From positions 558,001 through 622,000 of the forward strand of contig NZ_JAPWHB010000003.1 of the NCBI RefSeq assembly GCF_027214025.1: a stretch of DNA of 64,000 nucleotides. Direction: 5' to 3'. This document shows, in pieces, positions 39,318 to 45,695 of the stretch. The number at the start of each line of letters is the position of its first letter. Within the stretch, counting starts at the first letter, position 1. Below the pieces are notes generated by a model, which saw nothing but the letters and a program-made list of their open reading frames with translations, ran no database searches and was not told the DNA's origin. The translations under genes and the position numbers were made by a program. The DNA is from Parahoeflea alexandrii (GTDB taxonomy: Bacteria > Pseudomonadota > Alphaproteobacteria > Rhizobiales > Rhizobiaceae).

Positions 39318-40307
39318 TTAACCTATTTCCGCAAGTGACGGATCGGCCCGCTGGCGGTCGATTTCACGGATCGTGCGGGTGACAGTCAAGCGGGTGGTCA
39401 CCGCCGTCATTGCAGATATCAGCACGACGATGCCGACGATGCCGAAGTAGCCGGCGCCGCTCAAGGTGAAGCGGCCGAACAGGGCGGTGACCTGGTCATT
39501 GAGCGCCGTTGCCATGGAGTTGGATTGCCATGCGCCAAGCAGAAGGAACCCGAGAGCGGCAATGCAGCCGCCAAAGGCTGCGCCCTTGAGGCCGATCAGC
39601 AGAAAGCGCTTCTGGAACTCGGCCGCGATGAACCTCGTTTCGGCGCCGACGAAGTGCAGCACTTCGACGATATGGCGGTTGCCGGCCATTGCGCCGCGGG
39701 TGGCGAAGATGACGGTCAACATGGTTGTGGCGAACATCAGCGTCAGGATGCCGACCCCGATCAGAACGGTGATGCGCGCCATCGAGATCAGCCGGTTGGC
39801 CCAGGCGCGATGATCATCCAGTGTTGCCGTGGGCACGCTTTCGGCAAGGTTTGCCCGGATGGCGTCGAAATCAGGCGGCGCCGCCTCGTCGATGGTGACG
39901 ATGACCAGCCGGGGTACCGGCAGCTCGTCCATGTCGAAACCCTCACCAAGCCAAGGCTCCAGCAGTCTTGCGGTTGAGGCGCGATCGACGATCTCGGCGG
40001 TCAGTGTGCCAGGGAAGGCCAGGGCGATGGTCTTGACCTCGGTGAGCGCGGCTTCCATGTCGACGCCATCATCGGGTTTGACCTGGATGGTGATCTCGCG
40101 GGAGACGTCGCCCTGCCAGGCCTCGGCCTTCTCCTGCACCATCGTCACGGCGCCAAGGGTCATGGAGCAGAGAAATGACATGATGGCGATGACCACCATC
40201 AGGGCATGGCCGGAGACGTTGACCGGCGGCACGATCGGCGCCATCGGCCTGAGCGTGACCAGGCGTTCTCGCTTCTGATTGTCGCTGGGATCGGCGCGCT
40301 CAGTCAT
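39318..40307 (-). CDS. ftsX: Cell division protein FtsX
   Basis: This 329-residue membrane protein has a first helix at about 28-52, a periplasmic loop to about 175, then three helices (about 180-205, 230-255, 285-310), the FtsX topology. With FtsE it forms a non-transporting ABC complex which activates peptidoglycan amidases at the septum through the periplasmic loop. It overlaps ftsE by eight bases. The N-terminus is extended and polar, as in other alphaproteobacteria. Confidence 0.92.
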   Translation of the reverse strand: MTERADPSDNQKRERLVTLRPMAPIVPPVNVSGHALMVVIAIMSFLCSMTLGAVTMVQEKAEAWQGDVSREITIQVKPDDGVDMEAALTEVKTIALAFPGTLTAEIVDRASTARLLEPWLGEGFDMDELPVPRLVIVTIDEAAPPDFDAIRANLAESVPTATLDDHRAWANRLISMARITVLIGVGILTLMFATTMLTVIFATRGAMAGNRHIVEVLHFVGAETRFIAAEFQKRFLLIGLKGAAFGGCIAALGFLLLGAWQSNSMATALNDQVTALFGRFTLSGAGYFGIVGIVVLISAMTAVTTRLTVTRTIREIDRQRADPSLAEIG

Positions 40308-40959
40308 AGATGTCGAGCCGTCCTTCCGACAGGATCATCCGGCGCGCATCGACACGGTCCATCAGGGTGAGGTCGTGGGTGGCGATGACAACGGCGGTGC
40401 CGAGCCGGTTGAGTTCGGTGAACAGGTTGAGCAGGCGCTGCGCCATCGGCGGATCGACATTGCCGGTGGGCTCGTCGGCGAGCAGAACCTCGGGCTGGTC
40501 GATCAGGGCGCGGGCGATGGCGACGCGTTGCTTTTCCCCGCCCGAAAGCACCGGCGGCAGCACGTTGATGCGTTCGCCCAGGCCGACCCATTTCAACAAT
40601 TCGATCACATCGGACCGGTAGCTCGCCTCTTCCTTGCCGCGCACCCGCAAGGGCAGGGCGACGTTCTCATAGGTGGTCATGTGATCGAGCAGCCGGAAAT
40701 CTTGGAAGACGATGCCGATCCGGCGCCTGAGCAGCGGCAGATCCTCACCCGGGATCATCGAAATATCGCGATCGAACATGCGGATCAGCCCGCGCGTGGG
40801 CTTAAGTGACATGAACAGAAGCCTCATCAGCGTGGTCTTGCCCGCACCCGACGGCCCGGTCAGGAACTGGAAGGATCTCTTGGGGATGTCGAAGGTCAGG
40901 TCACGCAGGACCTCGGGCCCCATGCCGTAACGCAAACCGACATTTTCGAAATGGATCAA
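40300..40959 (-). CDS. ftsE: Cell division ATP-binding protein FtsE
   Basis: This 219-residue ABC ATPase has Walker A GPSGAGKTT near 38, the LSGGEKQRV signature near 140 and Walker B VLLADEPTGNVD near 162. It starts MIHFENVGLRYG, the normal FtsE beginning, and powers the FtsX-dependent activation of septal cell wall hydrolysis. A consensus CtrA site lies about 65 bases upstream of the start codon, so cell-cycle regulation is likely. Confidence 0.95.
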   Translation of the reverse strand: MIHFENVGLRYGMGPEVLRDLTFDIPKRSFQFLTGPSGAGKTTLMRLLFMSLKPTRGLIRMFDRDISMIPGEDLPLLRRRIGIVFQDFRLLDHMTTYENVALPLRVRGKEEASYRSDVIELLKWVGLGERINVLPPVLSGGEKQRVAIARALIDQPEVLLADEPTGNVDPPMAQRLLNLFTELNRLGTAVVIATHDLTLMDRVDARRMILSEGRLDIYD

Positions 40960-41022
40960 CGGTCACTTCCTGTCCCGGTGGTCTTTGGGCGCAACGGCTG
41001 GCCGCAGAGTCGCCGGGCATGG

Positions 41023-41038
41023 TTAATGCAGAGTTAAC
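41023..41038. promoter_or_regulatory. CtrA binding site (TTAA-N7-TTAAC)
   Basis: TTAATGCAGAGTTAAC matches the full CtrA consensus with exactly seven bases between the half-sites. It lies between divergent ftsE (start 64 bases away) and the hypothetical gene to the right (about 120 bases away), so CtrA may control one or both. Confidence 0.75.
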
Positions 41039-41159
41039 ACACCTGCTCAGACGGGTGGTATACGCGGCTTGTTCGCCAAGCGTTAATCATTTCCATTTAC
41101 GGTTCGGTAAGGGATGTTTCAATGCCTTCTGCAGGGCAGGGGTGGAAAAGGGGTGCCTC

Positions 41160-41774
41160 ATGGGCGTTTCGAGCCGTGCGACACATGCGATCGAGCCGGG
41201 AGCAGGCGATCTTCTGATGCCGGACCGGAACCGGAGGCTGGATGGTGCGCCGAGACGTGACGTCGAGGACGCCTGCTTCGAGCCGGTTTCCGCTCCGCGC
41301 GATGTGTTTTCGAACAAACCGCGCGGCGGTGCCGCAGGCGGAGTGTTCAAATCCCGGATCACGCAGCCCGAGGCCGATGGCCCAATCCCGCGCGATTTCG
41401 CCAGCGGACCCACGGCGCGCAGCGAGCGGCTGGGAGTGTTCGCAGCCAGCCGAACCGCAGTTGCCTCAGGTGGATTGATGTCGCCCAGGGTGGCGCTGGC
41501 GGTGTGCGCGATAGCGGCGGCGGCAGCCTTCTGGATGGTCGGCGGTCACGCGCTGGTCCGGTCGTCCGGGACCGAGCAGCCGGTCTCGAAAATCAGCCCG
41601 CCGGCTGCCTCGATTACCGGGCGGGCCGCCCTGTCCCCCGATCCGGTGGTAACGGCGTCGATTCCGGTCGAGACGGCAAAGCCTGCGGCAGCCGGGTTCA
41701 CGGCTCCCATGCCACGCCCCGCCCGGATCGAACGTGCGGGATCAATCCTGATGATCCGCCCGGCAGGCGATTGA
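41160..41774 (+). CDS. Hypothetical protein with one membrane segment
   Basis: The 204-residue product has a polar N-terminal half rich in Arg, Ala and Gly, one hydrophobic helix at about 107-127 (ALAVCAIAAAAAFWMVGGHAL) and a Pro/Ala-rich tail, presumably periplasmic. I recognise no domain. AAAGGGG at good distance supports the start; an in-frame ATG 47 codons upstream would overlap the CtrA site. Its position opposite ftsE, with the CtrA box between, suggests an envelope or cell-cycle role, but that is inference only. Confidence 0.6.
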   Translation: MGVSSRATHAIEPGAGDLLMPDRNRRLDGAPRRDVEDACFEPVSAPRDVFSNKPRGGAAGGVFKSRITQPEADGPIPRDFASGPTARSERLGVFAASRTAVASGGLMSPRVALAVCAIAAAAAFWMVGGHALVRSSGTEQPVSKISPPAASITGRAALSPDPVVTASIPVETAKPAAAGFTAPMPRPARIERAGSILMIRPAGD

Positions 41775-41943: not shown

Positions 41944-42486
41944 ATGCCGGTTGTGCGCGGAAAAATCATCGAGCCCCTGTTTACACCGGAGATGATTGCG
42001 GCGCGCAATCGCGCAATGGCTGCGGAAATCGCCGCCAGCCCGAAGAAGGACCTGCTGGTCATTTCGATCCTCAAGGGCTCCTTCATCTTTGCCGCCGATC
42101 TGATCCGGGCGTTGCACGATGCCGGACTTGAGCCGGAAGTCGAGTTCATCACGCTCTCGAGCTACGGACGGGGCACCACCAGCCAGGGCGTCAAGATCAT
42201 CAAGGACATCGACAGCGATGTGCGCGGACGCGACGTGCTTTTAATCGACGACATCCTCGAATCGGGCCGGACGCTGAGATTTGCCCGCGACCTGATGTAT
42301 GAGCGCGGCGCCAACGATGTCGATATCGCGGTGCTGCTCGACAAGCGCTCCCGGCGCGAAGGCAGCCTCGACGCGGATTATGTCGGTTTCGAATGTCCGG
42401 ATTATTTTGTCGTCGGCTACGGCATGGACGTGGCCTATGCCTTCCGCGAACTGCCGTTTGTCGGGGTGGTCAAGGGCGACGCCTGA
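41944..42486 (+). CDS. hpt: Hypoxanthine phosphoribosyltransferase
   Basis: The 180-residue enzyme salvages hypoxanthine or guanine with PRPP. It has the flexible loop SSYGRGTTSQG near 75, the PRPP-binding VLLIDDILESGRTL near 98, LLDKRSRRE, and the base-contact VGFECPDYFVVGYGMDVA near 150. Length is normal. A ribosome binding site is seen at GGAGAG upstream. No other purine genes are adjacent. Confidence 0.95.
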   Translation: MPVVRGKIIEPLFTPEMIAARNRAMAAEIAASPKKDLLVISILKGSFIFAADLIRALHDAGLEPEVEFITLSSYGRGTTSQGVKIIKDIDSDVRGRDVLLIDDILESGRTLRFARDLMYERGANDVDIAVLLDKRSRREGSLDADYVGFECPDYFVVGYGMDVAYAFRELPFVGVVKGDA

Positions 42487-42595: not shown

Positions 42596-42964
42596 ATGGC
42601 CAGAATCCTGATCGCAGAAGACGAAGATTCTCTCAGGCGCTTTGTGGCGCGGGCGCTTGTCATGGACGGGCACGAGATTGTCGAAGCCGGCGATGGCGCC
42701 GAGGCGCTGGATCATGTGATCGAAGGCGGTTTCGATCTGCTTCTGTCCGATATCCGGATGCCGGTGATGGATGGCATCGCGCTTGCGACCGCGACGGCCG
42801 AACACAGCCCCGGCATGCCGATCCTGTTGATGACCGGCTATGCGGAGCAGCGCGAGCGCGCCGAACCGTTGATGCGGATCGTGGTCGACGTCGTGCCGAA
42901 GCCGTTCACGCTTCCGGATATCCGCCAGGCGGTCGCGGATGCGCTGACACCGCAGGCCGCCTGA
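42596..42964 (+). CDS. cpdR: Single-domain response regulator CpdR
   Basis: The 122-residue receiver-only protein has the acidic pocket in LIAEDEDSLRR, the phosphoacceptor Asp in LLLSDIRMPVMDG near 51, the Thr/Ser-equivalent at LLMTGYAEQRERAE and the Lys in VPKPFTLPDI near 101. This matches CpdR, which when unphosphorylated helps bring CtrA and other substrates to ClpXP; phosphorylation by the CckA-ChpT relay blocks it. It is monocistronic, convergent with the TIGR02302 gene. Confidence 0.9.
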   Translation: MARILIAEDEDSLRRFVARALVMDGHEIVEAGDGAEALDHVIEGGFDLLLSDIRMPVMDGIALATATAEHSPGMPILLMTGYAEQRERAEPLMRIVVDVVPKPFTLPDIRQAVADALTPQAA

Positions 42965-42979
42965 GTTTCACACCAAGCC

Positions 42980-45571
42980 CTATTGCAGGTCGAGCAGGCG
43001 CTCCAGATAGCGTTTCTCCAGATCCGGCGACAGTTGGTCGCCGAGCCGCTTGCGGATGGCGTCGAGGATCTCGCGGGCGCGCTGGATGTCGATCTCGTCG
43101 GGAACCTTGACCCGGCTGCCGAAATCCGGACCGGTGGTCGCGCGCGGGCGGCCGAGTGGATCGCGGTCATCGGCCGAGCGGTTGCCGTTGCGGTCCGGCC
43201 CTTCGCCTTCGGCCTCGCCCTGCTCATTGCCCATGGCTTGCATCATCTGGTTCATCATGTCCTCGGCGCCCTGCCTGAGCGCCTGCAAGGCCCGCCCCTG
43301 ATTGCTGAGCGCCTGGCCGGTTTCACCGCCTTCAAGATTGCCGGCGGCATCGCCCATGGCTTCTCCGGCCTCGCCGAAGCCTTCCGACGGCTGGATGCCA
43401 AGGCCTTCGAGATCGCTCTGCAACTGCCCCAGCGCATCGCGCAGCTGCTGCTGGCTGCGGCCGAGCGCCCCGAGCATGTCCTCAAGTGACTGGTCGCCCT
43501 GCCCCTGCTGGCCCTGATCCTGTCCCTGGCCTGGCTGCTGCTGGCCCTGCTGCTGGCGGTCACGGCCCTGGCCTGACTGGCTCTGGCGCTCCCTGTCGGC
43601 GCGCATGGTCTCATCCATCAGCTGCTGCTGCTGGCGCATCAGTTCGCCGAGCTTGTCCATCTGCTGGCGCATCGGACCGCCCTGCTGTTGCTGGCGCTGC
43701 TGCCGGCCTGCCTGCAGGTTGTTCATCATGCGCTGCAGTTCCTGCAGCATCTGCTGGGCCTGATCCCGGGCGCCGGAGCGGGCGAGGTTTTCGATCTGGT
43801 CGAGCATGTTGTCGAGATCGCGCTGGCGCAGCATGTTTTCGGGCATGGCCTGCTGGTTCTCGCCATTCTGGTTGGCGGGGTTCTGGCGGGCCATTTCCCG
43901 CAGGTACTCCTGCATGGCCTCGCGCAATTCATCCATCAGCCGGGCGATCTCTTCATCCGTGGCGCCGTTTTCCAGCGCTTCGGAAAGCGCGTTCTGGGCG
44001 TCGCGCAGCCGGCGCTCGGCGAGGGACAGGTTGCCGTCCTCCATCTGCAGCGCCACGCCCCACATGTAGTCGATCGCCGCGCGCAGATCGTCGTCCGAAC
44101 GGGCATTCTCCAGCCTGCCCCTGACCGACTGCAGCAGCAGGTAATGGGTGAGGTTGGGTATGGTTTCATCCGGGGCGATCGTCAGCGCGTCATGAAGGTC
44201 GAACACCCGCTGCAGATTGTTCGCATCGAGCGCCAGCACGCCGCGCTGCTCGACGACCGCCGCGGCCAGCGGTTCGGAAAAGCGCCGTCCGGGCAGCACG
44301 GTCTCGAGCGTCTCGCTGCGTCCCTCCTGTCCCGCTCCGTCGGTGGCGACGAGGGTGATGCGGACCTTCTGGCCGGCGAGCGGATGTTCGGTCAGATCGT
44401 GGCTTGCGACAGCGCGGTTGTCGGCAGACGACCGCCGGGGCAGGGTCAGCCGGTATTTCGGTGGATCAAACAGCGGCCGGGCGTCGGGCGCGGGTTCGCT
44501 TGCGGGAACGATTTCGGCTTCCGCCGTTGCTATCCCGTGGTCGTCGGAGAGCGTGTAGTCGAGTTCCAGCGCGCCATTTGCGGCACGGCGCGGCGATTCG
44601 ACGAAGGCTGCGACCGGCGGTTCGTCGGGGATCAGGCGAATGGCGAAAACCGCCTCGGACCTGCCGGCGCTGATCTTGAGTTCGCCATCGGTGTCCGGCT
44701 TGACCGTCCAGGTTGACGCAGTTGCCGGTGCCGACTGGCTCGCGGATGCGGCACTGGCCGGTTCAACCGGGTTCAGGGCATTTTCGTCTGCGCCCCACAG
44801 CACCTGCGCATCCGCGGCGCTGCCGCCAATCCTGACGGTGATTTCACTGCCCTCGACGGCCGCGACAGGTTCTCCCTCCGGACGCGCCACGCCGGTGAGG
44901 AAGACCGGAGCCTGGTTGACGTAGGACGGCGGCGTGATCCAGGCGTCGATGCGGACATCGGGCAGCTGGGTGCCGGAATGGCTGACAAAGGCATCGGCTG
45001 GCTTGCCGGCGTTTCCGGAGAAGGAATAGCCGAAGGACACGAACAGCAGCAGGGCGATCGCGACGCGGATACCCCAGGGATCGCGTTCAGGCAGGCTGGA
45101 TCGCGGAATGCCGGTTTCGAGCGTTCCGATCTTCCCGGCCATCCGGCGGCGATGTTCGTCCCAGAGCGCGCGGGCGAATGGATCGGATGCGGATATGGTG
45201 TCGTCCTGGGTGGCAATTGCCTGATTGGCGATGCGGTTTTCGGCTTCCAGCCGTTCATCGATCTCCGCGCGGGTCGGCGGTGTGAAGCGGAGCAGCGGCC
45301 AGAGCGAAGCGAGCAAGCCAAGGCCGAACATGCCGAGAAGCAGCAGCCGCAGCGAATCCGGGACGATGCGGAAAATCCCGAGCCAGGAGAAACTGAAATA
45401 GAGCGCCACGATCGCAAGAAGCGGGGCGGACAGGGTAAGAATGCGGCCGAGCGCCAGGTTGCCCCGCATGCGCAGGCGACCGAAGGCGACCACGCGGCCA
45501 ACCTCGTTGTCCGGGATATGCGCCTTCCGGCTTTCGGAGTGCGTCTGGCTGCTGTCAGGCTTGGCTGCCAT
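42980..45571 (-). CDS. TIGR02302-family (DUF4175) large membrane-anchored protein
   Basis: The 863-residue protein has three membrane helices in the first 190 residues (about 42-62, 72-92, 165-183), a region with Ig- or Y_Y_Y-like repeats, then long helices and a Gln/Met/Gly-rich stretch (about 600-720, repeated QQQ and MRQQM) followed by the family's C-terminal PLGRPRATTGPDFGSRVKVP and IPD-type ending that stops at ERLLDLQ. It is typical of rhizobia, next to lysA and argH; function unknown. The start is set at MAAKPDSSQ after AAGGA; an upstream start would add 22 non-conserved residues. Confidence 0.88.
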   Translation of the reverse strand: MAAKPDSSQTHSESRKAHIPDNEVGRVVAFGRLRMRGNLALGRILTLSAPLLAIVALYFSFSWLGIFRIVPDSLRLLLLGMFGLGLLASLWPLLRFTPPTRAEIDERLEAENRIANQAIATQDDTISASDPFARALWDEHRRRMAGKIGTLETGIPRSSLPERDPWGIRVAIALLLFVSFGYSFSGNAGKPADAFVSHSGTQLPDVRIDAWITPPSYVNQAPVFLTGVARPEGEPVAAVEGSEITVRIGGSAADAQVLWGADENALNPVEPASAASASQSAPATASTWTVKPDTDGELKISAGRSEAVFAIRLIPDEPPVAAFVESPRRAANGALELDYTLSDDHGIATAEAEIVPASEPAPDARPLFDPPKYRLTLPRRSSADNRAVASHDLTEHPLAGQKVRITLVATDGAGQEGRSETLETVLPGRRFSEPLAAAVVEQRGVLALDANNLQRVFDLHDALTIAPDETIPNLTHYLLLQSVRGRLENARSDDDLRAAIDYMWGVALQMEDGNLSLAERRLRDAQNALSEALENGATDEEIARLMDELREAMQEYLREMARQNPANQNGENQQAMPENMLRQRDLDNMLDQIENLARSGARDQAQQMLQELQRMMNNLQAGRQQRQQQQGGPMRQQMDKLGELMRQQQQLMDETMRADRERQSQSGQGRDRQQQGQQQPGQGQDQGQQGQGDQSLEDMLGALGRSQQQLRDALGQLQSDLEGLGIQPSEGFGEAGEAMGDAAGNLEGGETGQALSNQGRALQALRQGAEDMMNQMMQAMGNEQGEAEGEGPDRNGNRSADDRDPLGRPRATTGPDFGSRVKVPDEIDIQRAREILDAIRKRLGDQLSPDLEKRYLERLLDLQ

Positions 45572-45695
45572 CTGATTTTCCTTCAGCGTCGGAAACGAAG
45601 ATAGCAGTCTTTGCGGCCAAGGCGAGGCCTGTGCCAAAAAAGTGAAGCCGGATTACCGCCGTGACGGAAAATATCCGTGACGTCTCCCGACGGCG

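Follow-up and report, generated by a model that had tools for sequence, protein, structure and literature searches.

In the window, the 64,000-nt stretch of DNA analysed here, ftsE (40300–40959, minus strand; TTG start codon at 40959–40957) encodes the cell-division ABC ATPase FtsE, which matches TIGR02673 at 288.1 bits against a cut-off of 264.85. The next gene on this strand, at 39318–40307, overlaps the end of ftsE; its product scores 56.1 bits for TIGR00439, under the cut-off of 255, and we refer to it as ftsX from its position after ftsE. The two genes probably form an operon. An earlier sequence-only reading of this DNA had placed septal hydrolysis under cell-cycle control here, the part on septal hydrolysis deriving from what FtsEX does in general. 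Across a 200-nt gap, which extends from the ftsE start codon to an ATG at 41160, a gene for a 204-residue protein with a single predicted transmembrane (TM) stretch is transcribed divergently (41160–41774, plus strand). It is followed on the same strand by hpt (41944–42486; hypoxanthine phosphoribosyltransferase, TIGR01203, 165.3 bits, cut-off 150) and a gene for a CpdR-like single-domain response regulator (42596–42964). The latter had been read as cpdR, 1.6 kb from the motif in the gap. The distance is correct, but the identity is not: the product is the second-best NF046022 match in the genome at about 100 bits (101.4; 100.4 in the genome search), well short of the 180-bit cut-off, and curated-level CpdR is encoded on a different contig from the window (C41:592090; 198.2 bits), hence the window gene is a paralogue. 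A response-regulator pattern was present within 3 kb on the hpt side at 76 of 80 loci, with L059, L076 and L077 lacking it and L022 short. Positions 42983–45637 encode a large low-complexity TIGR02302/DUF4175 protein (943.1 bits), to which no function was assigned.

A conserved direct repeat upstream of ftsE

The motif that drew attention to the gap, an exact TTAA-N7-TTAAC between ftsE and the hypothetical gene, was confirmed as TTAATGCAGAGTTAAC at 41023–41038 of the plus strand, nested in GTTAATGCAGAGTTAAC (41022–41038). Read on the minus strand, the same element (box 1, 41022–41037) is a direct repeat, TTAAC-TCTGCA-TTAAC, with an 11-bp period that separates two TTAA half-sites as in a CtrA site, and it lies 63–78 nt upstream of the ftsE start codon. 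An E. coli-type sigma-70 promoter scan did not recognise a -10 element for ftsE. TTAA-N7-TTAA occurs only once in the window and in none of 100 dinucleotide shuffles, while TTAA-N7-TTAAC gives 2 strand-matches in the window (shuffle mean 0.03; 1 of 100 shuffles reaches 2). Genome-wide (5.54 Mb), the latter motif yields 37 strand-matches at 29 distinct places versus 21 for a backward-read control, and TTAAC-N6-TTAAC yields 16 versus 7. This is a mild enrichment, which alone is poor evidence for the box; the strong evidence is conservation.

The 27 Hoeflea rows were reduced to 18 distinct sequences, those of the genome studied here and 17 genus-mates, and ftsE upstream regions of relatives were taken from the best 80 of at least 586 matches in a public genome set. 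After duplicate removal the box test comprised the 18 Hoeflea sequences and 68 others from these best 80 of at least 586 matches, nearly all of them from Rhizobiaceae and one from Aquamicrobium (L090). Isolate SAT27 (L076), titled Hoeflea sp., was grouped with the non-Hoeflea sequences, since by its FtsE (88%) and its promoter it goes with Pseudohoeflea (L077). GTTAA-N6-GTTAA was perfect in 16 of the 18 distinct Hoeflea sequences and one base off in each of the other two (L011 and L018), so that all 18 scored at least 9/10, against a shuffle average of 0.04 rows. Conservation in relatives, the check that had been proposed for the box, therefore bore it out within Hoeflea; the box was absent from L076 (7/10), L059 (7/10) and L077 (8/10). 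All 18 box sequences come from one genus, and mere recent common ancestry might be invoked for their likeness, but we give this explanation next to no weight: the half-site columns are conserved at 98–100%, versus 69% for the box spacer and 64% for the 32 bases that follow (41039–41070), and the near edge of the box lies anywhere from 45 to 80 nt from ftsE, a variation of up to 35 nt.

The orientation of the site required revision. The terminal C of the plus-strand match (41038), on which the exact TTAA-N7-TTAAC depends, is present in 2 of the 18 Hoeflea sequences. Since this base is rare and the minus-strand consensus is kept, the conserved site is the minus-strand TTAAC-N6-TTAAC, which points to ftsE; the plus-strand match exists in this genome but is not the conserved form.

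Outside Hoeflea the site is looser. Among the 68 other sequences (best 80 of at least 586 matches), 17 scored at least 9/10 (0.17 in shuffles) and 42 at least 8/10 (2.2 in shuffles), and at the lower threshold a 13-bp spacing was found in 51, the 11-bp spacing in 42 and a 10-bp spacing in 37. The 13- and 10-bp spacings fit extra half-sites and weaken a strict single-box reading for these genomes. In an order-level sample, the strict box was found nowhere but at our own locus, at L161, which is from a genome of the same family, and at L169.

The CtrA circuit and the link to ftsE in relatives

The genome encodes CtrA on contig C41 near 462150–462830 (NF045991, 423.7 bits, cut-off 350) and CckA (1465 bits, cut-off 1000), so that through these two proteins it has both the regulator and a phosphorelay that could act on it. 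The 600 bp upstream of ctrA itself gave no score above 8/10 by our crude box score, and the published autoregulatory pattern is therefore no clean yardstick here. The stretches around the 28 other TTAA-N7-TTAAC places were inspected, giving a qualitative list only. Flagellin genes and rpoD were among the neighbours, both below curated cut-offs and rpoD clipped by the locus end, and one place fronts a gene that we named rem by eye and that has no NCBIfam match. Genes of these three kinds are known targets of CtrA. The motif was also found near genes for a GNAT enzyme, a porin and an L,D-transpeptidase. Three repA genes, all above cut-off, have CtrA-type boxes 56–71 bp ahead of their called starts (L113 ~1494, L114 ~1471 and L134 ~1473, on contigs C1, C3 and C66), which hints at cell-cycle control of repABC replicons. 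Boxes upstream of L,D-transpeptidase and N-acyl amino acid synthase (FeeM-like) genes were at L118 ~1529 and L135 ~1529 and 1572.

To our knowledge, neither the GNAT enzyme, the porin nor the three repA genes are known as CtrA targets, and OmpR-type DNA-binding domains are matched 14 times in the genome. Both observations would suit a regulator other than CtrA, either of the OmpR family or a nucleoid regulator, that recognises a similar TTAA-rich site at the box. We regard this as improbable, as the motif of two TTAA half-sites is the published CtrA site of S. meliloti and has also been applied to Agrobacterium (excerpts of PMC7003649), and in a relative, Brucella abortus, binding of CtrA at the ftsE promoter is reported (PMC2877005 and PMC3616915, in part).

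CtrA thus remains the best candidate for box 1, and its connection to ftsE has precedents. S. meliloti ftsE also has a predicted CtrA motif upstream of it (PMC3616915, in part). For A. tumefaciens, the available text of PMC7003649 gives ftsE as up in a pdhS2 mutant (log2 1.63) and lists a putative CtrA site at ftsE by a loose 7-base criterion. Caulobacter ftsE carries a GANTC motif, and its level drops when CcrM is missing (excerpts of PMC3973325). On the other side, ChIP-seq and depletion in S. meliloti led to minCD being named as the only division genes already characterised that CtrA controls directly, and the main text of that paper, as far as it was available, does not mention ftsE (PMC4433202); these data speak in part against the link. 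A search of open-licence literature found no paper treating CtrA together with Hoeflea. The CtrA–ftsE connection has already been reported or predicted in relatives; what is new here is the genus. The B. abortus, S. meliloti and A. tumefaciens sites share with box 1 the regulator, the target gene and the type of site with two TTAA half-sites. The Hoeflea candidate site differs in being near-perfect, genus-wide and oriented with ftsE, and in being sequence-based, whereas most other genera examined have a degenerate site, with extra half-sites in some Rhizobium sequences. The proposed cell-cycle control at ftsE is accordingly favoured by the conserved box, by the presence of CtrA, CckA and CpdR and by the sites of relatives, and the S. 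meliloti ChIP-seq and depletion data count in part against it.

A separate promoter for the divergent gene

About 60 bp to the right of box 1, which ends ~58 bp upstream of the -35 element, a second conserved region was recognised from conservation as the promoter of the divergent gene (41096–41123, plus strand). It consists of TTTACG (41096–41101), a 16-bp spacer and TTCAAT (41118–41123), and the E. coli-type sigma-70 scan found nothing there. At a score of at least 10/12, TTTACG-N16-TTCAAT was present in all 18 Hoeflea sequences and in 62 of 71 others (best 80 of at least 586 matches), and the spacer was 16 in all 80 sequences that carry it. The fixed promoter was missing in L059, L067, L076, L077, L078, L079, L080, L084 and L090. 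Directly upstream lies a degenerate CtrA-like element (element 2, 41072–41090, plus strand), TTCGC-N6-TTAATCAT, which again has an 11-bp period. Its pattern, TTNNC-N6-TTAAY, matched 14 of the 18 Hoeflea sequences and 65 of the 71 others (from the best 80 of at least 586 matches), compared with 0–9 rows for other spacings, and element 2 may be a weak CtrA site. As a repeated regulatory motif element 2 was rejected, TTAAYCATT-N4-TTTAC occurring once in the genome. The conserved ATGTTTCAATG was likewise dismissed as an ORF start codon: neither of its ATGs shares the reading frame of 41160, and there are small indels nearby.

Outside Hoeflea the promoter commonly holds a CcrM site. GANTC lay wholly inside the promoter spacer in 45 of the 62 non-Hoeflea promoters (best 80 of at least 586 matches), rows which are related and do not represent independent events, against a background of 4% of 28-bp segments. 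GANTC was found inside none of the 18 Hoeflea promoters, which thus lack the sign of ZitP-type GcrA/CcrM input.

Since the divergent gene is served by a conserved promoter of its own, with a closer CtrA-like element, box 1 alone does not show CtrA control of this gene. Box 1 is stronger than any other site in the 200 bp that the two genes share, and it might nonetheless mainly control the divergent gene, or both genes. This is unlikely in our view, given the conserved orientation to ftsE, the plus-strand C that is not kept, and a conserved -35/-10 pair that has its own, closer element, box 1 ending ~58 bp upstream of that -35. For the earlier suggestion that the neighbour is a candidate cell-cycle envelope protein, box 1 alone is insufficient.

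Taken together, the 200-bp gap is probably a two-promoter cell-cycle control region, in which a CtrA box serves ftsEX and a separate promoter serves a reduced ZitP-type neighbour. To the left, phosphorylated CtrA would bind the minus-strand TTAAC-N6-TTAAC and set the timing of ftsEX transcription, as activator or as repressor; the occupancy of box 1 by CtrA and any effect there are what we infer from the DNA. To the right, a sigma-70-type promoter with the weaker CtrA-like element upstream of it would drive the single-pass membrane protein, which would be the Hoeflea form of a gene that is divergent from ftsE in much of the Alphaproteobacteria. The Rhizobiaceae form of this gene is without a zinc ribbon and that of the Hoeflea group without a DUF3426 domain as well; what the Hoeflea form keeps is a short motif conserved at the N-terminus, the TM stretch and a C-terminal tail that does not vary. 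If the two-promoter reading is correct, a single small conserved region links the cell-cycle circuit both to a division gene and to one of polarity type.

The divergent gene and its resemblance to zitP

The window protein had no Pfam or NCBIfam match, and its best PDB match had an E of 0.52. Its structure was predicted as one low-confidence helix (residues 109–127) with the remainder unstructured or disordered (mean pLDDT 53.5); there is also a hydropathy peak, and the protein appears to be bitopic. CXXC-X19-CXXC is missing from it, the zinc ribbon PF13719 had no match across its genome, and DUF3426 (PF11906) was found in 0 of 16 Hoeflea genomes examined. The gene is under purifying selection (dN/dS 0.23 versus sister L002), and the C-terminal tail of the protein, RPARIERAGSILMIRP (41715–41762), is identical in all 15 Hoeflea proteins aligned, unlike the variable middle. 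A single-sequence search recovered the gene in 18 of 41 genomes, all of the same genus. Confinement to the genus is contradicted by synteny, as the slot is filled in relatives: at the non-Hoeflea loci (best 80 of at least 586 matches), the hpt signature, used as a synteny marker, was present in 71 of 71, and an ORF with a strong hydrophobic stretch lay divergent from ftsE and before hpt in 68 of 71, the exceptions being L078, L080 and L084. At the order and class level, a gene that is divergent from ftsE and encodes CXXC...CXXC together with a hydrophobic stretch was found at 37 of 58 best-scoring ftsE loci, a set that includes our own locus, four loci without a recognised ftsE and some clipped at contig ends. 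Many of these zinc-ribbon neighbours have the ZitP architecture of zinc ribbon, TM and DUF3426.

Profiles were built from 65 Rhizobiaceae-form sequences, of which 63 have a DAxF motif (the hpt proteins at L078 and L080 were excluded), from 17 Hoeflea-form sequences, namely 14 from Hoeflea plus L059, L076 and L077 (the Hoeflea loci L003, L007, L009 and L015 are absent), and from 20 zinc-ribbon sequences taken from 30 order-level loci. The Rhizobiaceae form matched the zinc-ribbon neighbours at 98.1% (E 6.7e-14 as a single comparison) over 96 columns in DUF3426, and the Hoeflea form matched the Rhizobiaceae form at 97.4% (E 1.2e-11, likewise for a single comparison) over 124 columns that extend from the N-terminus to include the TM. 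By profile comparison, the Hoeflea form showed no direct similarity to the zinc-ribbon proteins; the Hoeflea-to-zinc-ribbon link passes through the Rhizobiaceae form and synteny. Individual DUF3426 hits to such proteins were under the Pfam cut-off (best E 0.029). For L047, a representative of the Rhizobiaceae form, the C-terminal part was predicted with high confidence as six strands, and a Foldseek comparison of this form with the PDB returned one match with E <0.001, the others being weak and mixed. The zinc ribbon of L143 matched PDB entry 2nb9 (E 9.8e-10), labelled 'Uncharacterized protein'. The available part of PMC5182065 gives the ZitP ribbon residues as C5, C8, K18, R24, R27, C28, C31, R34 and W35, and since the 2nb9 chain carries these residues at these positions, we infer that 2nb9 is the ZitP ribbon. 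W35, which is required for ZitP–PopZ binding according to the same excerpts (PMC5182065), was found in 45 of 46 recovered ribbons. That zinc-ribbon proteins form a broad family speaks against the ZitP reading.

The gene that had been listed as an unknown membrane protein is therefore no orphan; by synteny and profiles, it represents in Hoeflea a partner of ftsE that occurs throughout the family. On the strength of this synteny and of the profile bridges it looks like a domain-reduced zitP-type gene, with common descent from such a gene as a probable and a function with FtsEX or at the pole as a possible implication. We consider this partner a more interesting result than the box. An unrelated, lineage-specific membrane protein that came to sit in the ZitP-type slot would also account for the missing direct similarity to zinc-ribbon proteins and for the very low predicted order. 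It is not a likely explanation, as the Rhizobiaceae form shares DUF3426 with the zinc-ribbon set and its N-terminal half with the Hoeflea form, and this bridging form occupies the same ftsE–hpt slot.

Descent from a zitP-type gene would bear on a stated gap, as PMC5182065, in the passages available, describes Rhizobiales as encoding no ZitP orthologues and as having a unipolar PopZ whose control is unknown. The ftsE-neighbour locus is a concrete candidate for what became of ZitP in this order. It is possible, though we put it forward with some doubt, that ZitP persists beside Rhizobiaceae ftsE in domain-reduced form, its PopZ-binding ribbon swapped for a novel motif at the N-terminus, DLLxP...DvxDAxF, and its cell-cycle promoter kept, and that it takes part in polar growth and division either with FtsEX or as the factor that controls PopZ; the Hoeflea form would have had its periplasmic domain replaced as well, by the invariant RPARIERAGSILMIRP tail. 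Searches of open-licence literature found no paper combining zitP with ftsE, or ftsE with DUF3426.

ZitP of Caulobacter crescentus is a bitopic membrane protein, as the available text of PMC5182063 and PMC5182065 describes it, and the predicted product of the divergent gene is alike in this respect. Its zinc ribbon with W35, TM and DUF3426 are common to the ftsE-divergent genes of other families. Compared with ZitP, the Hoeflea form has neither the zinc ribbon nor DUF3426, and its promoter is without the GANTC site, whereas the Rhizobiaceae form is without the zinc ribbon and, by profile comparison, keeps DUF3426. Caulobacter zitP depends on GcrA and CcrM (PMC5182063, in part), and the CcrM site in the Rhizobiaceae-form promoter fits this dependence.
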